Of a stretch of DNA of 33,560 bases, positions 6,858 through 27,061 are shown piece by piece; position 1 is the first letter of the stretch, and each line of letters opens with the position of its first letter. The notes under the pieces were generated by a model. It saw only the letters and a list, made by a program, of their open reading frames with translations. It did not search any database and had not been told where the DNA came from. A program made the translations under genes and the position numbers. This DNA comes from Bacteroidales bacterium (GTDB taxonomy: Bacteria > Bacteroidota > Bacteroidia > Bacteroidales > UBA4181), in NCBI GenBank assembly GCA_031271175.1, contig JAISWE010000159.1, forward strand, positions 1-33,560. Direction: 5' to 3'.

Positions 6858-8075
6858 ATGGATATTCAAAAAATCAGGGATGATTTTCCGATATTGTCGC
6901 AAAAAGTATATGGCAAACCCATAGTATATCTGGATAACGGCGCTACAACCCAAAAACCGAAGGCAGTGCTGGATACCCTTGTCCGGATGTATGCCGAGCA
7001 GAATGCCAATATCCACCGTGGGGTGCACTTTTTGAGCGAACAGGCAACGGAAGCTTACGAAAATGCAAGGCGTACGGTGCGTGATTTCCTGAATGCCGAG
7101 CTTTCGCAGGAAATCATTTTCACTTCGGGGGCAACTGCCGCCATCAACCTGGCAGCATTTTCGTACGGTGAACGGTATGTCGGCGCCGGCGACGAAATCA
7201 TCGTATCCGTCATGGAACACCACTCCAACATCGTTCCCTGGCAGATGATGTGCGAAAGAAAAGGCGCGTCGCTGAAGGTGATCCCCATTTCGGACAGCGG
7301 CGAATTGCTGATGGAAGAATACGGCAAACTGTTTTCGCCCAAAACGCGCCTTGTTGCCATTACCCATGTGTCCAACACGCTGGGAACGGTCAATCCCGTA
7401 AAAGAAATCATCCGGATAGCACACGAAGCAGGCGCGCACGTGCTGGTGGACGGCGCTCAGTCGGTACAGCATATCCCTGTTGACGTACAGGATTTGGCAT
7501 GTGATTTTTTCGCTTTTTCCGGGCATAAACTCTACGGGCCTACCGGTATAGGCGTGCTGTACGGCCGCAGGGAACTCCTCGACGAACTCCCGCCCTGGCA
7601 GGGCGGAGGGGATATGGTTGATTGTGTCCGGTTTGAACAGACTACCTACAACGAACTGCCGTTTAAGTTCGAAGCCGGCACCGCCAATTATATTGATGCC
7701 GTAGGATTGGAAAGCGCCATCCGCTACCTGCTATCCGCAGGAATGGAGGAGATTGGCGCCTATGAAGCGGCGCTGACACAGTATGCGCTGGAACAGCTTC
7801 AGCAAATAGACGGAATACGCATCTTCGGAACGGCCAAACATCGCACAGGCACGTTTTCACTCCTGCTGGACGGCATCCATCCCTATGATACCGGTATGAT
7901 TCTTGATAAAATGGGAATCGCCGTCCGCACAGGCACCCACTGCACACAACCGCTCATGCAACGCTACGGCATAGAAGGAACAGTGCGCGCCTCCTTTGCG
8001 CTTTACAATACTTTCGAAGAAGCGGATCGCTTGTGCGAAGGACTTAAAAAAGCGCAAAAACTGTTTAAAACTTAA
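6858..8075 (+). CDS. sufS: Cysteine desulfurase, SufS type
   Basis: YLDNGATTQKP, EHHSNIVPWQ, DGAQSVQHIPVDVQDLACDFFAFSGHKLYGPTGIGVLYG (PLP lysine), active-site Cys in RTGTHCTQPLM. Confidence 0.92.
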   Translation: MDIQKIRDDFPILSQKVYGKPIVYLDNGATTQKPKAVLDTLVRMYAEQNANIHRGVHFLSEQATEAYENARRTVRDFLNAELSQEIIFTSGATAAINLAAFSYGERYVGAGDEIIVSVMEHHSNIVPWQMMCERKGASLKVIPISDSGELLMEEYGKLFSPKTRLVAITHVSNTLGTVNPVKEIIRIAHEAGAHVLVDGAQSVQHIPVDVQDLACDFFAFSGHKLYGPTGIGVLYGRRELLDELPPWQGGGDMVDCVRFEQTTYNELPFKFEAGTANYIDAVGLESAIRYLLSAGMEEIGAYEAALTQYALEQLQQIDGIRIFGTAKHRTGTFSLLLDGIHPYDTGMILDKMGIAVRTGTHCTQPLMQRYGIEGTVRASFALYNTFEEADRLCEGLKKAQKLFKT

Positions 8076-9573
8076 GACCTACCGTAAAGTTTACCGCATG
8101 TTTTTTTTCCTGCATGACGGAACTCAACCACGCATTATTAGCAGGATTCTGGCGATACAGGTCATAATAATGGGGAGGGTATTTCGTATAAACATACGAC
8201 ATGTCAAGATAGACGCCTCTTCCTCTGATGCCCACGCCTCCGGAAAAACTGATGATACCCTCGTTATCAAACTCGTCGGAGGAAAAATGTTCTTGAGCAA
8301 AGGGAGTGCCGTAATAAGCCGCGCCGCCACGCAAGGAAACAGGTCCTATGCGAAATTCCGCGCCGCCTTTCAGGTTAAGAGCATTCCTGAATATTTGCGC
8401 CGCTTCACGGTTGATATTCCGGTAATCCGAATTGGGACGAAATTTGGCCGTTGCATAATCCACATATTCAGCGTCCAAACCGATAATTCCGAATGTCCCG
8501 ATGATGAAAGCCGCTCCGGCGCTGTATCGCCACGGGGTGGACAGTTTGAATTTCCCTTCGCCAATGGGACTGAGGGAATTATAATGGTTAGCGTTGTCTG
8601 AGGTTATTATTGGTTCTTTGTAGTAAGCATCCATTTCGGTGTCGAGTTCCGACCGCAACGAATAGCGCGTAGGGGTATGAATCGACACAGCCAGCCGCAG
8701 CATATTGATCGGCCGGAAGATGACGCCGGTTTTGAAATTCATTCCTGTGCCGGTAACCGTATAGTCGGAACGGAACTGAAATTCGTCAAGGTATTGAAAA
8801 GAAGGCGTTTCCGTATGAAGATAGGATTCCTTGTGATACAGACTTTGGATACCCCATGTTGCACCGAGATACATCCTGTCGTTAATATTGAAACCCAGCG
8901 AAATGGCATATTCTCCTACGCCTCCTTTGTTGGTCATGGTACGTTTCATCGGTTGGAGATAATTCCCTTCGCTCGAATAATCGTTATAGTAGTGGTTATC
9001 CGACGAATTGTCAGGATCGTGAAATATCAGTTTGGTGTCAAATGCCGGTCCCGTATAAAAGTCGTCCAGCCGGCCTTCCTGCAATGGTTGGCCGTTGTCG
9101 CCATGGTTGGCATCCCATGTTAAATCTTCTACCAGAGAAGACGGGACGTCGGTATCGACAAAAGCCGCAGAGGAGAAATCGCTCAACCGGTTGTAGGCAA
9201 AGCCGAAAGTGAAACTCCGCAGTTTTCTTTCACTCTGCGGTTTCCAGGTATGTACGTAACCGATATTGTTGAGGCGGAAAAAGGAGGCGGCTTCGTCGAA
9301 ATTTTCGCCATTCAGTTTGGAAGAAGTGGTGACGAAACTCGGCCCTAAGGTAAGCGTAAATTCGGTACCACGATAGATGCCTATGCCTGCCGGATTGGTA
9401 CTCAGCACGGACATATCGCCGCCCAGCGCTCCGAACGCGCCGCTCATGGCTGTTGCACGCGCTGTTCCCCCCGAAAAATATCTTGAATACGTCAAGAGGT
9501 CAAGGGCGCCCTGGGCAATAGCGCCTTGTGCAAATAAGGCGCTGCATATCAATATACTGAATATTTTTTTCAT
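8065..9573 (-). CDS. OmpP1/FadL-family outer membrane protein (often annotated hemin receptor in Bacteroidetes)
   Basis: Signal peptide; SGGTARATAMSGAFGALGGDMSVLSTNPAGIGIYRGTEFTLTLG; C-terminal aromatic residue (VGLKF); beta-barrel-like alternation. Confidence 0.85.
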   Translation of the reverse strand: MKKIFSILICSALFAQGAIAQGALDLLTYSRYFSGGTARATAMSGAFGALGGDMSVLSTNPAGIGIYRGTEFTLTLGPSFVTTSSKLNGENFDEAASFFRLNNIGYVHTWKPQSERKLRSFTFGFAYNRLSDFSSAAFVDTDVPSSLVEDLTWDANHGDNGQPLQEGRLDDFYTGPAFDTKLIFHDPDNSSDNHYYNDYSSEGNYLQPMKRTMTNKGGVGEYAISLGFNINDRMYLGATWGIQSLYHKESYLHTETPSFQYLDEFQFRSDYTVTGTGMNFKTGVIFRPINMLRLAVSIHTPTRYSLRSELDTEMDAYYKEPIITSDNANHYNSLSPIGEGKFKLSTPWRYSAGAAFIIGTFGIIGLDAEYVDYATAKFRPNSDYRNINREAAQIFRNALNLKGGAEFRIGPVSLRGGAAYYGTPFAQEHFSSDEFDNEGIISFSGGVGIRGRGVYLDMSYVYTKYPPHYYDLYRQNPANNAWLSSVMQEKKHAVNFTVGLKF

Positions 9574-9639
9574 GTTACTCGGAATAATGGATGGATCTTT
9601 TTTGTTTTGGAAAAATCGAACTTTTTTCTTTTACCTTGT

Positions 9640-10833
9640 TTACCGCCGTCCGCCGGAAGAACTGGACGACGATCTGGAGGAAGAGCTGCTGCTACTGCTG
9701 CTGCTGCTGTATGATGATGAACTTCTGGAAGACGATCCGCTGCTGTAGGAGCTGCTGCTACTGCTGCGCGACGGCGTTGAATAGGTACTGCTACTACTGC
9801 TGCGCGAGGGCGTCGAATAAGTACTGTTCGAACTGCTACTGCGCGAGGGCGTTGAATAGGAAGACGAACTGCTGCGCGAGGGTGAGCTGGAAGTGCTGGA
9901 AGAAGAAGACGTTCTTGTTGACGAACTGCTGCTGCTGTTTTGTGTGGTGCGCGGCGTAGTGTAGGTGGATGATCTTGAAACCGTTGTTCCCGTATTATTG
10001 TTGTTGGCCGTGTTGCTGTTGGTCGTATTGTACGAGGAGGTGGTTCTTCTTGATGTGCTGTATGCGGGCGATGAAGAGGTTGAAACCGCGCTACGTGTTC
10101 CGCTATTGCTGCTGACCGTCCGCCCCGAAGCCGTACTGTATGTGCTGTAACTTCTCCGCGCCGATCCGGTAGAGGCGTAAGTGCTTCCACCTCTGCGATA
10201 GACAGGCCCCGAAATGACGACTCTTGGGCGAGGATTGTAATAATTATAGTGATAATACGGATAATAATCATAGTACCTGTACCCGTAATATCCGTAATAC
10301 CCGTGGTGTCCGTAATACCACGGATTGTAGTACCATGAACTGTAATACCACGGACGGTAATAGTAGGACGGATATCCCCATCCGTAATAGGAACCGTACC
10401 AAGCGCTCGAATACCACGGGTCGTAGTAGAAACGGTCGAAACGGTTCAAGCGATAGGAATACGAGTCGTAGTCGTTGTAATAATTATTGGTAATGTAAGT
10501 ATTACCCGACGGATCCTTGGTTTGAGTGGATTCAACATACGAATAGGACGAAGAGCCGTTATCGCCGGCCGGAACGTCGTATTGCTCAACCGGTGCGGAT
10601 TGAATTTCTCCGGCTTCCAACGCCATACGGTATTTTTCGTAGTTGCTCAAAGTATCTTCGACAATTGTCGAAGCAGCAACCGGAGAGGAAACAACCTGCC
10701 TGTTCTCGGTCGATGATTGTTTTTTGGGAACATAATAGATATCGTCTTCATAGAATTTAGTTCCTTGTGCCGATGAATATTCTATGGACATCGCTATGGC
10801 GATTATACTGGGGATAAAATACATTGTCTTCAT
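9640..10833 (-). CDS. Secreted Tyr/Trp-rich and Ser-rich low-complexity protein
   Basis: In-frame ATG at 10833 (ORF track starts at 11076) preceded by AGGAGG; signal peptide MKTMYFIPSIIAIAMSIEYSSAQG; Tyr-rich block (YYDPWYSSAWYGSYYGWGYPSYYYRPWYY...) followed by Ser-rich tail with YSTPSRSSSS repeats. Confidence 0.75.
   Translation of the reverse strand: MKTMYFIPSIIAIAMSIEYSSAQGTKFYEDDIYYVPKKQSSTENRQVVSSPVAASTIVEDTLSNYEKYRMALEAGEIQSAPVEQYDVPAGDNGSSSYSYVESTQTKDPSGNTYITNNYYNDYDSYSYRLNRFDRFYYDPWYSSAWYGSYYGWGYPSYYYRPWYYSSWYYNPWYYGHHGYYGYYGYRYYDYYPYYHYNYYNPRPRVVISGPVYRRGGSTYASTGSARRSYSTYSTASGRTVSSNSGTRSAVSTSSSPAYSTSRRTTSSYNTTNSNTANNNNTGTTVSRSSTYTTPRTTQNSSSSSSTRTSSSSSTSSSPSRSSSSSYSTPSRSSSSNSTYSTPSRSSSSSTYSTPSRSSSSSSYSSGSSSRSSSSYSSSSSSSSSSSRSSSSSSGGRR
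9744..9885 (-). repeat. Degenerate in-frame tandem repeats encoding (T)YSTPSRSSSS(S/N)
   Basis: Repeated plus-strand units of the form ctgcgcga(c/g)ggcgt(t/c)gaata(g/a)g... three to four times; protein shows three YSTPSRSSSS units in series. Confidence 0.65.
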
Positions 10834-19915: not shown

Positions 19916-20007
19916 CATTAAGATTTTTCAAATATCGGTACAAAGAAAGGTATTTTTTCGAAAATCCGTACATTTTCACTGTAAAAAACTTTTTTTCACT
20001 TGTATGA

Positions 20008-20039
20008 TTTGGAAATCGTATGATTTTCATCTAATTTTG
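20008..20039 (+). promoter_or_regulatory. Bacteroidetes-type promoter TTTG-N20-TAATTTTG
   Basis: TTTG at 20008-20011 and TAATTTTG at 20032-20039 with 20-bp spacing, matching the -33/-7 consensus, directly upstream of the ATG at 20049. Confidence 0.55.
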
Positions 20040-20048
20040 CATCGTGTT

Positions 20049-22772
20049 ATGCGTACTTTTGTAGTCATATTATCGGTTCTGCTGTTTCTGGCGGGTGCGG
20101 CCTTTTCGGTTTATTTTGTTTTATTGAAAGAGGAGCCGCCGGTTCTGGAGATACAGTTCGACGCTGTTCCGCCGGATGCCGGCATCATCGTGGATGTCCG
20201 GGACTATGGCGCATTGTGTGAACTGATGAAGGAAAGTCCCCTGTGGACGCAACTGTGTAAAATAGCTTCTCCGGAAAAATTAACGAAACAGATGGCACAA
20301 TGGCAGGCGCTCATCCGGGGACATGTTGTTTTTTCCGTACATCCGCTGGGCAAAGAGGATATGGGGTTTATCGGATACATGCGCATGAGCGGCAAGGAAG
20401 CGGAAAACGTGATGCTTTCCATCAGACAGCAATGGCCTGCAAGCGTTTTTTCCGATCGCGAATACGACAAAATCGTCATTACGGAAGTGATCTTCTCTGA
20501 GGAAAAACAAGCGCCGCAAAATTTTTTCTATGCCTTTCGCAACGGTTATCTGCTTTTTTCCCCTTCGTCCATCCTGCTGGAAAATGCGCTACGACAGCTA
20601 ATCGTCGGCCATAACATTACCGATCGGGGAGGGCTGGCCAATCTGGTGCGTACGGCGGGTAAAAATGCCGCTGCCAACGTTTACCTCCATTACGAAATGT
20701 TGCCCCGTGCGTTGCGTCCCTTTCTCCATCCCGACAGGATGAAAACCGTGTCGTCGGTAACCGGTTTTGCCGATTGGACGGCACTGGATTTGACGCTGAA
20801 ACCGGAATGGATGATGTTCAACGGGTTCACCGGCAATGCCCCCCATTCCGACAAGTGGCTTCCCGTCCTGCAAACACAGCCCCCCCTTCCGGTGACCCTT
20901 ACCGATGCCATGCCGCCTACTACCTGCGCCTTCTTCTGGATGGGCATCCGGCATATCCGGCAATATTTCAACGATTACGGTAATTATTCGACCAAATCCG
21001 GGCTAACAGCCCATAAAAAAGAACAGGAACGGATACGCGCCTCTTATGGAATCCGGCTGGAAAATGACTTTTCGGAACAGTTTGAAAACGAAATAGCGCA
21101 AGTTTATCCTTACCTGGGAACAGACCATACGGCATTTACCCTTTGCCGCATCAAAAGCACATCTGCCGCCATTGCCATGATTGAAAACTGGCAAGTAGGC
21201 TTTTGCGGGGCTACCGGTGATCCGGTCAACCGGCACAGAGCCGTACTTCCATTCGATGAACAACTGTCTTTTACGGCATACCATTTCCCTTTCGACGTCC
21301 CTTTTGCACTTTTCGGCAAACTGTTCAAAGGGAAAGGCGAATGGTGCGCCGTTGCTGATAATTACCTGCTTTTCGGCCCTTCGCCCGAATATCTCAAACG
21401 ATACCTGCACTACACCGCCCTTCACGCCAGCCTGCAAACCGACCTGACTTTCGGCAGGGTGGCCAATGAATTTTCGTCCAAGTGCAACCTGATGTTTTAC
21501 TGCAATCCCGCTGAATCCGCCGACTGTTTCCAACAATGGTTCGGCGCCGAAACGTTCAAAGAACTGGAAAATGCGGAAGAAACGCTGTCACAGGTACCGG
21601 CGGCCGTTTTCCAACTGAGCGTGGCAGGAGAGATGTACTACAACAACTTTTTCCTGAAACTGCAATCCGGAGAATCGGCAGCCCGCTCAACAGGGCTGCA
21701 AACCTCGTGGGAAAGCCTGCTGGATACCGCCATCACCTTCAAACCGCAACTGCTTCAAAATCACAATACGGGGAAAACAGAGGTTTTCGTCCAGGACATG
21801 GCAGGAAATGCCTGCCTGCTGAACAACATCGGCAGGATTTTATGGAAAATACGCTTGCCGGAAGCCATTCAAAGCTCCGTTTACCAGATAGACATTTACA
21901 AAAACAACAAACTGCAAATGCTTTTCAACACGCGGCATCATATCTATGCCGTCGATCGGCTGGGCAATATGGTGGACGGGTTTCCCGTACGGCTGCCTTC
22001 GGCGGCGACCGGCAGCATTGCCGTTTTCGATTACGAAAACAACCGAGATTACAGAATAATGGTAGCCTGCGAAAACCGGAACGTGTATGCCTACGATAAA
22101 AACGGCGCAAGCGTCGCCGGATGGAAATTCATCCGGAGCGAACACCCCGTTCAAACCGGCGTGTACCACCATCGTGCCGGAAACAAAGACTTTATCATCT
22201 TTGCCGACAAATACAAGGTATATATTCTCGACCGGCAAGGACGGACAAGAGTTTCCACCGAATACAATTTTCCCGTCGCCCGGAATACCGCTATTGCCAT
22301 GCACCGAAATGCAAGCATCGTATTGACGGATACCGCCGGTACGCCGCATTTCATATCCCTCTCCGACGGCAAAATCCAACGACAACCCGTGGCCAAATTT
22401 TCGTCCGGCCACTTTTTCGACTTCCAGGACACGGACGGCGACGGCCGGAACGATTTCATCTTTGCCGACAAAAATAAAATAGACGTCTTCCGGCAGGACG
22501 GCAGTCGGATAACCGCCATCGAAACCGACGAACCCGTGAGGATGCGCCCCGGCATCTATACCTTCTCCGCCACCGACATCAGGCTGGGTACCGTAGCCCC
22601 GCAAAAAAACCTGATCTACCTCTACAACAGCAAAGGCGAACTCCAGCCCGGATTTCCCCTGACGGGAAGCACCCCCTTCTCCATCGGACGGCTGGACAAG
22701 TTAAGCCCCAACTACAACCTTCTGGTAGGCAGTAAAAACAATTACCTCTATAATTATCCGGTAGGCCGTTAG
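20049..22772 (+). CDS. Large membrane-anchored/exported protein, DUF3352-like N-terminal part and propeller-like C-terminal repeats
   Basis: N-terminal TM (MRTFVVILSVLLFLAGAAFSVYFVLL); C-terminal repeats such as GNMVDGFPVRLPSAATGSIAVFDYENNRDYRIMVACENRNVYAYDKNGASVAGW and GELQPGFPLTGSTPFSIGRLD. Real start is in-frame ATG 20049, not 20004. Confidence 0.65.
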   Translation: MRTFVVILSVLLFLAGAAFSVYFVLLKEEPPVLEIQFDAVPPDAGIIVDVRDYGALCELMKESPLWTQLCKIASPEKLTKQMAQWQALIRGHVVFSVHPLGKEDMGFIGYMRMSGKEAENVMLSIRQQWPASVFSDREYDKIVITEVIFSEEKQAPQNFFYAFRNGYLLFSPSSILLENALRQLIVGHNITDRGGLANLVRTAGKNAAANVYLHYEMLPRALRPFLHPDRMKTVSSVTGFADWTALDLTLKPEWMMFNGFTGNAPHSDKWLPVLQTQPPLPVTLTDAMPPTTCAFFWMGIRHIRQYFNDYGNYSTKSGLTAHKKEQERIRASYGIRLENDFSEQFENEIAQVYPYLGTDHTAFTLCRIKSTSAAIAMIENWQVGFCGATGDPVNRHRAVLPFDEQLSFTAYHFPFDVPFALFGKLFKGKGEWCAVADNYLLFGPSPEYLKRYLHYTALHASLQTDLTFGRVANEFSSKCNLMFYCNPAESADCFQQWFGAETFKELENAEETLSQVPAAVFQLSVAGEMYYNNFFLKLQSGESAARSTGLQTSWESLLDTAITFKPQLLQNHNTGKTEVFVQDMAGNACLLNNIGRILWKIRLPEAIQSSVYQIDIYKNNKLQMLFNTRHHIYAVDRLGNMVDGFPVRLPSAATGSIAVFDYENNRDYRIMVACENRNVYAYDKNGASVAGWKFIRSEHPVQTGVYHHRAGNKDFIIFADKYKVYILDRQGRTRVSTEYNFPVARNTAIAMHRNASIVLTDTAGTPHFISLSDGKIQRQPVAKFSSGHFFDFQDTDGDGRNDFIFADKNKIDVFRQDGSRITAIETDEPVRMRPGIYTFSATDIRLGTVAPQKNLIYLYNSKGELQPGFPLTGSTPFSIGRLDKLSPNYNLLVGSKNNYLYNYPVGR

Positions 22773-22944: not shown

Positions 22945-24048
22945 ATGGCACTTCAATGTGGTATTGTAGGACTTCCCAACGTCGGCAAGTCCACTCTTTT
23001 TAACTGTCTGTCGAATGCTAAAGCGCAGGCAGCCAATTTTCCTTTTTGCACGATCGAGCCTAATGTAGGCGTCATCACGGTTCCGGACGAACGTCTGGCC
23101 AAACTTGCGGAACTCGACCAACCGCCAAGGGTGATTCCGGCCACCATCGAAACAGTAGATATCGCAGGGCTGGTGAAAGGCGCCGGTAAAGGAGAAGGGC
23201 TGGGCAACAAATTCCTCGCCCATATCCGCGAAACGGACGCTATCCTGCACGTGCTGCGCTGTTTCGACGACAACAATGTGACGCATGTGGACGGCTCCGT
23301 CGATCCGGTTCGCGACAAGGAAATCATCGATACGGAACTGCAATTCAAAGACCTCGAAACGGTGGAAAACCGGATCGAAAAAGTTCGGAAACAGTCGCAG
23401 GCCGGAGGCGACAAAACAGCCGGAAGAATGTACGAAATCCTGTTACAGTACCAGGAAGCGCTCCGGAAAGGTCAATCGGCGCGAACGGTGCAACTCGACA
23501 ACAAAGATGACCGCCGACTGGCGCGGGAACTTTTCCTGCTTACCGACAAACCGGTGCTCTACGTGTGCAATGTGGACGAGGCGTCGGCAGTGAAGGGCAA
23601 CCGTCATGTGGACGCCGTTGCCGCCGCCGTCAAATCCGAACAGGCGGGACTGCTGGTGGTAGCCGCCAAAATAGAAGCGGATATTGCCGAGTTCGACACC
23701 TTTGAAGAGCGGCAGCTGTTCCTGTCGGAAATGGGACTGAAAGAGTCCGGCGCCGTACGGCTCATCAAAGCCGCCTATTCGCTGCTCGGCCTGGAGACCT
23801 ATTTCACCACCGGAAAAGACGAAACCCGCGCATGGACTTACGTGAAAGGCGCCAAAGCGCCGCAGGCGGCCGGCCTCATCCACACCGACTTTGAAAAAGG
23901 CTTTATCCGCGCCGAAGTCATCCGGTACGACGATTACATCCGCTACGGTTCGGAAGCCGCCTGTCGCGAAGCCGGGAAAATAGCCATCGAAGGCAGGGAA
24001 TACACGGTACGGGACGGCGACATCATGCATTTCCGGTTTAACGTATAA
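22945..24048 (+). CDS. ychF: Ribosome-associated P-loop ATPase/GTPase YchF (OLA1 homologue)
   Basis: CGIVGLPNVGKSTLFNCLSNAKAQAANFPFCTIEPNVGVITVPD, VDIAGLVKGAGKGEGLGNKFLAHIRETDAILHVLRCF, C-terminal TGS region RDGDIMHFRFNV. Confidence 0.96.
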   Translation: MALQCGIVGLPNVGKSTLFNCLSNAKAQAANFPFCTIEPNVGVITVPDERLAKLAELDQPPRVIPATIETVDIAGLVKGAGKGEGLGNKFLAHIRETDAILHVLRCFDDNNVTHVDGSVDPVRDKEIIDTELQFKDLETVENRIEKVRKQSQAGGDKTAGRMYEILLQYQEALRKGQSARTVQLDNKDDRRLARELFLLTDKPVLYVCNVDEASAVKGNRHVDAVAAAVKSEQAGLLVVAAKIEADIAEFDTFEERQLFLSEMGLKESGAVRLIKAAYSLLGLETYFTTGKDETRAWTYVKGAKAPQAAGLIHTDFEKGFIRAEVIRYDDYIRYGSEAACREAGKIAIEGREYTVRDGDIMHFRFNV

Positions 24049-24066
24049 CTTTTTATTACCACCATT

Positions 24067-25146
24067 ATGGAACAACAGTTAAATGTACACGACAAGATCG
24101 AATACCCGCCGATGCACACGGCGGAACATATCCTGAACAGGACGATGGTAGAACTGTTCGGCTGTTCGAGGGCTATCACCACCCATATTGATAAGAAAAA
24201 GAGCAAATGCGATTATCTGCTTCCGTCGTCGCCCGGAGCGAAGATGCTGGCGGAAGTGGAACGCCGCGTGAATGAAGTGATCCGTCGCCGTCTTCCCGTT
24301 CATATCGACTTCCTGTCGCGCGAAGAAGCCGGCAAGATCGTTGATCTGGACAAACTGCCCGTCCGTGCGGGCAATACGGTTCGCATCGTGCGCGTGGGCA
24401 ATTACGATGCCTGCGCCTGCATCGGAAAACATGTGGGCAACACTTCGGAAATCGGCAGGTTTAAAATCGTCAGCTATAACTACAGCGAGGGAAAACTTCG
24501 CCTCCGGTTTACCGTCGTCGATCCGGCCGCCGTTTACCTGCAAGATGTGCCGGTAGACCATTTTTTTACCATCGCATCGGAATCCGAAGGAATATTCAGG
24601 AACAAGGGCAGCAAATTTATGGCTTTTGCCGTTCCGGTGAGCAGCGAAGAGGAAATCAGGGAAAAAATGGAATGGCTGAAGAAAAAATATTTCGACGCGA
24701 GGCATCATTGTTATGCATGGAGATTAGGCGTGGGCGGCGCACATTTCCGCACCTACGACGACGGCGAGCCTGCCGGTTCTGCCGGTAAACCGATTCTCAG
24801 ACAAATCACCTCTTTCGGGCTGACCAACATACTGGTGGCGGTCGTCCGCTATTTCGGCGGGATTCCGCTGGGTACGGCCGGACTGGTGCAGGCGTACAAA
24901 CATGCGTCCATAGATGCCTTAAGCCATGCCAACATCGTGCCGGCCGTGCTTACCGATACTTTTCTCCTCACTTTTGACTATCAAAACATGGATCAGGTAC
25001 TCCGAACGTTGAAAGACATGGAACTGGAATATACGGACAGATGTTTTGAAAACAACTGTTCCCTGAAAGTAAAAGTACGTCAAAGCCTTTCCGGCGTTTT
25101 GCTGCATCGAATCGGAAGGATTGCCAGCGCGGAAATGCAGGCATAG
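24067..25146 (+). CDS. Fusion protein: AlaX-like tRNA-editing (tRNA_SAD) domain + YigZ/IMPACT domain
   Basis: aa 1-~150: HTAEH (HxxxH) and CIGKH (CxxxH) metal motifs of AlaX/AlaRS editing domains. aa ~166-359: GIFRNKGSKFMAFAVPVSSEEEIREKMEWLKKKYFDARHHCYAWRLG...YDDGEPAGSAGKPIL...VVRYFGGIPLGTAGLVQAYKHA of YigZ/UPF0029/IMPACT. Single uninterrupted ORF. Confidence 0.88.
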   Translation: MEQQLNVHDKIEYPPMHTAEHILNRTMVELFGCSRAITTHIDKKKSKCDYLLPSSPGAKMLAEVERRVNEVIRRRLPVHIDFLSREEAGKIVDLDKLPVRAGNTVRIVRVGNYDACACIGKHVGNTSEIGRFKIVSYNYSEGKLRLRFTVVDPAAVYLQDVPVDHFFTIASESEGIFRNKGSKFMAFAVPVSSEEEIREKMEWLKKKYFDARHHCYAWRLGVGGAHFRTYDDGEPAGSAGKPILRQITSFGLTNILVAVVRYFGGIPLGTAGLVQAYKHASIDALSHANIVPAVLTDTFLLTFDYQNMDQVLRTLKDMELEYTDRCFENNCSLKVKVRQSLSGVLLHRIGRIASAEMQA

Positions 25147-25185: not shown

Positions 25186-26352
25186 TCAAAATTTTACCGT
25201 TACCGTTGCATCTTTTGTTCCTCGCACCCAGTCGCAGCCTTCCGTGATCAGGCGCATCGCTTCGCGGTCGGCGTCCGGGCAGAGGCTTTGTTCCACCGTC
25301 AAGCCGGCAGGACGCCGGTTCTCGTCCACGCCGAAACGGATCACCACTTCTCCCTTAACGCCGGCACATGCTCCGCCGGGACGGACACGATGCCGTTCCA
25401 AATACCGCCGGTACGCCTTTTTACCGATAACCGGCTGCGGGAGTTTTTCGGCAGTCTCTTCCGTCGCCGGACCGGCAACAGTGGCAACAGCCCCCACCGG
25501 CGATTGCTTTTTTTGCCTTCCGAATGCGACTACCACCACTTCATCCAGCGCTTCGGAATTTTCCTGCATGGCGATCAGCAGCGGAGAAGTATCGGCTTTG
25601 AACTCGCTGTTACGGTAGCCGACAAAAGAGGCAACGATAACAGCGCTGTCGGCGGCTTCCATTTCAAACCGGCCTTCCCTGTCGGCGAAGACGCCGTTGT
25701 GCGCGTCTTTCACCTGAAGGGTAGCTCCCGGAAGCGGTTGCCCCGATTCGTCCGTTACAAGCCCCCGGATGAGGTGTTTCATCTCTGCCATGTGCCGGAT
25801 GTCCCCGGACGGGGATGTATCAACGGCAGAGGATTTTTCGTTCTCAGCGACTGTGATAACGGCAGGCGGTGCAAGCCTGTCCTGTATCTCCTCGCTGATA
25901 ACTGCGGCTGTTTCAGCTGTTTCCTGCATGTCCGGTTCCGGTTTCAAGACAGCGCTCCGGTTTTCGGCGAGTTCCGGCGCCGACGGCTTTTTGGCGTCGT
26001 CGATCGGAAACAGTTCCGTCCGATCCGCAAGAATATTTTCCTGCGGCGGCAATTCCGGTGTTTCTTTCCGCAACAGCAACAGTCCCGCCCCGCCCAGCAG
26101 CAGGAGACTTGCGGCAATAGCCGCCCAGTAGCGGACGGCGTATGTTCCGGAACGGGATTTTCCGGCAACCGCAGTCTGTAGCCGTTTGATGGCCGAAGCA
26201 TGGTCGCCGGGCACGGTTTCGAAGCCTTCCATCGCATCGGCAAGGAAAGCGTCGGTCATGGAGATGCGTTCCAGACGGTGCGCCTCTTTTCCTTTCCGCT
26301 TTCCCCGGAGATACGGCAATATCTTTATCTGTTCATCCGGCTTTCGATGCAT
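25186..26352 (-). CDS. Single-TM protein with CarboxypepD_reg-like domain, SusC-like TonB-box motif and TonB C-terminal-like domain
   Basis: TM YWAAIAASLLLLGGAGLLLL; LIRGLVTDESGQPLPGATLQVKDAHNGVFADREGRFEMEAADSAVIVASFVGYRNSE; ALDEVVVVAFGRQKKQSPVGAV; C-terminus KGEVVIRFGVDENRRPAGLTVEQSLCPDADREAMRLITEGCDW. Confidence 0.75.
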   Translation of the reverse strand: MHRKPDEQIKILPYLRGKRKGKEAHRLERISMTDAFLADAMEGFETVPGDHASAIKRLQTAVAGKSRSGTYAVRYWAAIAASLLLLGGAGLLLLRKETPELPPQENILADRTELFPIDDAKKPSAPELAENRSAVLKPEPDMQETAETAAVISEEIQDRLAPPAVITVAENEKSSAVDTSPSGDIRHMAEMKHLIRGLVTDESGQPLPGATLQVKDAHNGVFADREGRFEMEAADSAVIVASFVGYRNSEFKADTSPLLIAMQENSEALDEVVVVAFGRQKKQSPVGAVATVAGPATEETAEKLPQPVIGKKAYRRYLERHRVRPGGACAGVKGEVVIRFGVDENRRPAGLTVEQSLCPDADREAMRLITEGCDWVRGTKDATVTVKF

Positions 26353-26909
26353 ATTTTTAAATTTCTTTTTCCGTTCTGGATGTAACTTTTGACGCTTTTC
26401 AACTGATAACCGGTGGCATTCGCAACGTCGGCATAGGACATTTCATCCAGAAAAAATTTCCTGATGCTGATGCGTTGCGGTTCGGGAAGTTTTTCCATGC
26501 AGCGGTGCAATGCCTCCAGCCATTCCCCGTTCTGTTCTTCCCGTCCTTCGTTTAATAATAGATGATCCACCGGATGCGATTCCATAAACTGTTCGTCAAA
26601 TTCAACGATCATTTCGTGTTTTTCTTTCCGCAACACTTGCAGACAGTGGTTCTTTGCTACACTGTACAGCCATGTGCGAAACGACCGGATTTCATAGAGG
26701 GCGATTTTGGAAGCCAGTTCTTCGTACAGTTGCATAACGGCATCCTCCGCATCTTCGGGGTGTTTCAGGTATTTCAGGCAAAGCCCGTACACCAGCGGGA
26801 TATAGCGGTGGTACAGCCGTCCAAAATACGCCATATCGCCTGTCGTACGGTAATACGCCAACAGTTCATCATCGCCCGGATGCCATAAAGTAGCCGAATC
26901 AATACCCAA
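26325..26909 (-). CDS. ECF-type RNA polymerase sigma factor
   Basis: ELLAYYRTTGDMAYFGRLYHRYIPLVYGLCLKYLKHPEDAEDAVMQLYEEL...FRTWLYSVAKNHCLQVLRK...LPEPQRISIRKFFLDEMSYADVANATGYQLKSVKSYIQNGKRNLK. Start set at TTG 26909 because a TATATTTG -7 box (26936-26929) lies inside the longer ORF (to 27005). Confidence 0.82.
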   Translation of the reverse strand: MGIDSATLWHPGDDELLAYYRTTGDMAYFGRLYHRYIPLVYGLCLKYLKHPEDAEDAVMQLYEELASKIALYEIRSFRTWLYSVAKNHCLQVLRKEKHEMIVEFDEQFMESHPVDHLLLNEGREEQNGEWLEALHRCMEKLPEPQRISIRKFFLDEMSYADVANATGYQLKSVKSYIQNGKRNLKICIESRMNR

Positions 26910-27061
26910 TTTATCAACGTTTATCCTGCAAATATATAAAAGAATTTCAAATAGATGCACCGGCAGATAAAAAAATAATTGAAAAAAGCCGTTTTTTGCA
27001 CGCAACGTTTTAAAAATATTACGTCTATATCATTGTTTGATAATAATTGTTTCAACATAAA

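Follow-up and report, generated by a model that had tools for sequence, protein, structure and literature searches.

This study focused on a window of 33,560 nucleotides, which belongs to a 2.93-Mb draft MAG with 236 contigs and a completeness of about 80%, and in particular on a single forward-strand ORF at positions 24067–25146 that joins an alaX gene to a yigZ gene. The ORF specifies 359 aa plus a stop, and the uninterrupted frame reported in the initial annotation was confirmed from the sequence. It lies 18 nt downstream of ychF (22945–24048, forward strand), a gene of the ribosome-binding ATPase family that is also the neighbour at the corresponding loci of G002 and G009, two genomes of the same genus. 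From the N-terminus, the product carries an AlaX-S-type editing domain (24067–24540, aa 1–158) of which standalone homologues exist, with a tRNA_SAD core at aa 105–138 and two metal-binding motifs, HTAEH (HxxxH, H17 and H21, 24115–24129) and CIGKH (CxxxH, C118 and H122, 24418–24432). This is followed by a linker of predicted disorder (aa 153–162, 24523–24552) and then by a YigZ/IMPACT part (aa 162–359, 24550–25143) with its UPF0029 domain at aa 180–285. The seam proper occupies aa 158–161 (24538–24549) and includes a CAA codon for Q159 (24541–24543) and a GTG codon for V161 (24547–24549), a possible original yigZ start that stays in frame.

Other genes of the window were noted as well. Downstream, on the reverse strand, are a gene for an ECF sigma factor (26325–27005) and then one for a 388-aa protein (25186–26352) that combines a CarboxypepD_reg/SusC-N-type domain with a weak TonB_C-like end and resembles an anti-sigma or TonB-type hybrid. 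Upstream, a 922-aa protein (20004–22772, forward strand) has weak matches, below cut-off, to DUF3352 and beta-propeller-like families, and two overlapping reverse-strand frames of 502 and 233 aa (8065–9573 and 9570–10271) have no Pfam match at E ≤ 0.001.

In the AlaX half, Pfam tRNA_SAD scores 40.4 bits against a curated cut-off of 24, and NCBIfam matches to the AlaX/AlaRS editing region span about aa 16–156. H17, H21, C118 and H122 align with H9, H13, C116 and H120 of Pyrococcus horikoshii AlaX-S, which are the zinc ligands of that protein (PMC3680381). Both motifs are near-invariant in relatives, and the AlaX module with intact metal motifs that had been proposed at the outset therefore stands, with tRNA_SAD above its cut-off and all four ligands in place. 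Since just 16 residues precede H17, the half belongs to the short AlaX-S type and not to AlaX-M; consistent with this subtype, the C-terminal part is UPF0029 and no C-Ala family match was found. The AlaX-M equivalog model NF040865, which requires 300 bits over 234 positions, gave 78.3 bits, the match covering only positions 97–231. AlaXp enzymes cleave Ser- and Gly-tRNA-Ala, and AlaXp-S cleaves Ser-tRNA-Ala only and is without tRNA specificity (PMC11295145). As every metal ligand is present, hydrolysis of Ser-tRNA-Ala is predicted for the N-terminal half, which probably removes serine misattached to tRNA-Ala and so backs up AlaRS. Of AlaRS itself, the first 35 positions and no more were found in the window's genome, and that of G002 is full-length with its editing region.

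In the YigZ half, UPF0029 scores 117.7 bits against a cut-off of 27 over the full profile (positions 1–107), and NCBIfam places a YigZ match at aa 165–338, so that the in-frame joining of a YigZ/IMPACT protein to the AlaX module was also borne out. With the equivalog TIGR00257 the score is 143.5 bits, under the cut-off of 167.95, over positions 4–179 of 205, the C-terminal end being divergent; the half is thus filed as UPF0029/YigZ-like rather than as a certified member of that equivalog. A DUF1949-type C-terminal domain gave no Pfam sequence match at E ≤ 1, and the predicted structure matches the whole chains of the E. coli and Thermus YigZ structures 1vi7 and 2cve with E-values of about 1e-17. 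The fused ORF is the sole UPF0029 match in the window's draft genome. Genes for yigZ elsewhere in the order, at about 45–60% identity to the YigZ half, are likely its orthologues, and the half probably functions in the same way as free YigZ. In E. coli, the function of yigZ was given as unknown in a biofilm screen (PMC8743551), and the gene has been reported as necessary for gut colonisation (PMC12171958).

An AlphaFold model of the fused protein (mean pLDDT 83.8, pTM 0.50) has residues 153–162 below a pLDDT of 50. Its AlaX half matches 1v7o and 1wnu (target-normalised TM of about 0.8) and its YigZ half the structures named above; together with the low confidence of residues 153–162, this indicates that two folds already known are connected by a flexible linker. 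The model shows no confident inter-domain contact or mutual orientation.

Each half is 46–75% identical to its counterparts in relatives. The AlaX half keeps 44 of 45 residues that are near-invariant among 23 standalone Bacteroidota AlaX proteins, and the YigZ half 48 of 49 that are near-invariant among 25 standalone YigZ proteins, the exceptions being E42D and G246R. These identities and the retained residues argue that the fusion partners are not chance matches. In comparison with G002, the AlaX half has a dN of about 0.14 and a dS of about 0.74; the respective values are about 0.19 and 0.54 for the YigZ half and 0.06 and 0.60 for YchF. At the sequence level, these values show purifying selection on both halves since the split from G002, although most of the signal may predate the fusion. 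Both halves cluster with G002 in their trees, where for each half the branch of the window exceeds that of G002 in length (0.29 against 0.12 and 0.25 against 0.11). Relaxed constraint after the fusion was considered and rejected, as p fell below 0.05 in only one of 12 Tajima tests and a similar lean is seen in YchF.

The probable history of the gene emerges from its closest relatives. In G002, a sister species, the order is ychF-alaX-yigZ, with alaX and yigZ separate and their products 75% and 72% identical to the window halves. In G009, which is 93% complete, ychF adjoins yigZ with no alaX in between, and a search of the rest of that genome gave no alaX match. The seam reads GTT TAT ACG TAA AAAGGGCG ATG GAA AAC GAC in G002 and GTT TAC CTG CAA GAT GTG CCG GTA GAC in the window, so that the Q159 codon aligns with the TAA stop of G002 alaX and the GTG codon with the ATG start of G002 yigZ. 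The stop-to-start distance is 11 nt in G002, where alaX and yigZ occupy different frames, and the equivalent distance in the window is 6 nt, which brings the AlaX and YigZ parts into a shared frame. From these differences it follows that fusion required the loss of a stop and a net 5-nt change in the spacer. It also added almost no sequence, given that most standalone AlaX proteins of Bacteroidales terminate at the equivalents of aa 152–159 and that yigZ proteins begin near aa 161.

These comparisons favour, with some confidence, a young read-through fusion of adjacent alaX and yigZ genes by stop loss, in which the halves are probably independent and their coupling incidental. It would have begun with the arrival of alaX between ychF and yigZ in the common ancestor of the window species and its sister, after which the window lineage would have lost the alaX stop and the short spacer come into frame. 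We infer by parsimony over incomplete MAGs that there was a gain of alaX and not a loss from G009 and others, and the order of stop loss and spacer change is likewise a reconstruction. A ribosome would then translate from alaX straight on into yigZ, giving a protein whose two domains fold independently and are joined by about 10 flexible residues, and some free YigZ may still arise from the GTG start.

In a rival account, the gene would have two products, a fused AlaX-YigZ and a free YigZ initiated at 24547, with the fused form a by-product of lost termination. The GTG is the only in-frame ATG, GTG or TTG near the seam, as well as being the counterpart of the G002 start codon, and a non-ATG yigZ start has a precedent in the genus, since the yigZ of G009 follows an in-frame stop and has only a TTG as a possible start before the conserved N-terminus (L017:1433–1501, directly after ychF with no alaX). 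However, elongating ribosomes crossing the GTG site may hinder initiation there, and on balance this account is considered quite unlikely.

A more serious concern is that the seam is an artefact of assembly or base calling, or represents a rare population variant, and that the true alaX ends near codon 159, the GTG or a codon close to it being the start of yigZ. The single change C24541T would recreate a stop exactly at the G002 position and leave an in-frame start at the position of the G002 ATG. A single-base indel scan showed that loss of any one base at 24538–24546 ends alaX at a TAG overlapping yigZ, with the GTG start kept, and that the genes are also split by an extra T following 24543 or 24555. 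Because the scan found these routes beyond the stop substitution, the artefact is given more weight than it would otherwise receive, and the fragmented, incomplete state of the draft MAG points the same way. Against it, the other conserved genes of the window (ArgG, GyrB-type, SufS-type, Cmk, PurA and YchF) give long unbroken domain matches, and as they carry no sign of frameshift a general problem of sequence errors is not apparent. The spacer differs by 5 nt from that of G002, and hence the seam has diverged, and over the divergence from G002 (dS of about 0.5–0.7) a true change is a priori likelier than an error falling on so few positions. A false fusion through miscounting of the run of seven Ts at 24561–24567 was rejected, as the scan did not yield two good genes from it. 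An artefact or rare variant is accordingly regarded as unlikely.

Whether real fusions of this kind recur is a separate matter. Searches with the whole protein, or with a profile for both halves, covered overlapping samples of 393 genomes from the order, 395 from the class and 396 from the phylum. A match across both domains was obtained in the window's own genome and in no other, and on these samples a conserved fusion family shared by more than one species was rejected. For the order sample this result covers the matches listed, ranked by score, where a fused gene would be expected among the first. The fused protein was not covered to 80% by any plasmid record, and none of the papers searched named AlaX and YigZ together. 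A general alaX-yigZ neighbourhood was also rejected: in the stretch examined around them, yigZ loci outside the window's genome and G002 have no alaX, and alaX loci no yigZ. The only adjacent, unfused pair found was that of G002, the two genes being apart at the other loci examined, and the stretch examined around standalone Bacteroidales AlaX loci gave no match to ychF or yigZ.

This rarity bears directly on what the fusion could reveal about YigZ. The initial annotation had taken it to suggest a role for YigZ in translation quality control, which is unsupported because the AlaX-YigZ pairing is not recurrent, and the domains show no confident contact in the model. A singleton arising by stop loss between neighbours is weak 'Rosetta stone' evidence and carries little functional weight, and the function of YigZ is not revealed by the fusion alone. 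It could still be argued that the fusion is adaptive, with YigZ acting as a tRNA- or ribosome-targeting module for AlaX-S. The lack of tRNA specificity in AlaXp-S (PMC11295145) would leave room for such a partner, and C-Ala, which in AlaX-L is joined on the same side of the editing domain, brings that domain to tRNA (PMC3158927); by this comparison YigZ might conceivably carry the editing domain. The translation-linked ychF lies just upstream, and Foldseek matches the model to EF-G/EF-2, although these matches superpose poorly over their length (rmsd > 10) and are uninformative on tRNA binding by the fused protein. However, the fusion occurs in one genome only among the order, class and phylum samples, its domains lack a confident contact in the model, and G002 makes AlaX and YigZ as separate proteins, all of which render an adaptive targeting module very unlikely. 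The stronger version, in which the fusion was selected so that a tethered YigZ targets a non-selective AlaX-S, is highly improbable; it would make the protein a trans-editing enzyme of a new kind and give YigZ a part in translation quality control. Read-through of neighbouring genes remains the preferred reading, and the fusion is probably a genuine, if minor, curiosity, a recent and lineage-specific accident. Should it be real, the domain architecture is one for which we found no description, seen shortly after its formation and with the unfused and alaX-free states both surviving in the same genus, and the fused gene could readily serve as a construct to ask if YigZ influences AlaX activity.

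The protein can be set beside several known systems. P. horikoshii AlaX-S (1v4p/1v7o/1wnu) has the same domain length, HxxxH and CxxxH ligands and fold, and likewise lacks an N-terminal domain before the first motif, but the identity is just about 25% and the window protein runs on in frame into YigZ. The standalone AlaX proteins of Bacteroidales (Bacteroides ihuae, B. nordii, B. pyogenes and others) are closer, with the same motifs, about 51–66% identity and lengths mostly of 152–159 aa; their genes end in a stop codon where the window ORF reads on. On the other side of the seam, E. coli YigZ (1vi7) and Thermus TTHA1053 (2cve) share the UPF0029 domain and fold but are free proteins without an N-terminal AlaX. 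AlaX-L resembles the window protein in having a domain added C-terminally to the editing domain, C-Ala in the one case and YigZ in the other. A further example is the TrpRS of Plasmodium and other apicomplexans, in which an AlaX-type module is also placed N-terminal to another protein (PMC3680381). Unlike in the window, the apicomplexan module has lost its metal motifs and is attached to a synthetase by a 72-residue linker, and several apicomplexans share the fusion (PMC3680381).
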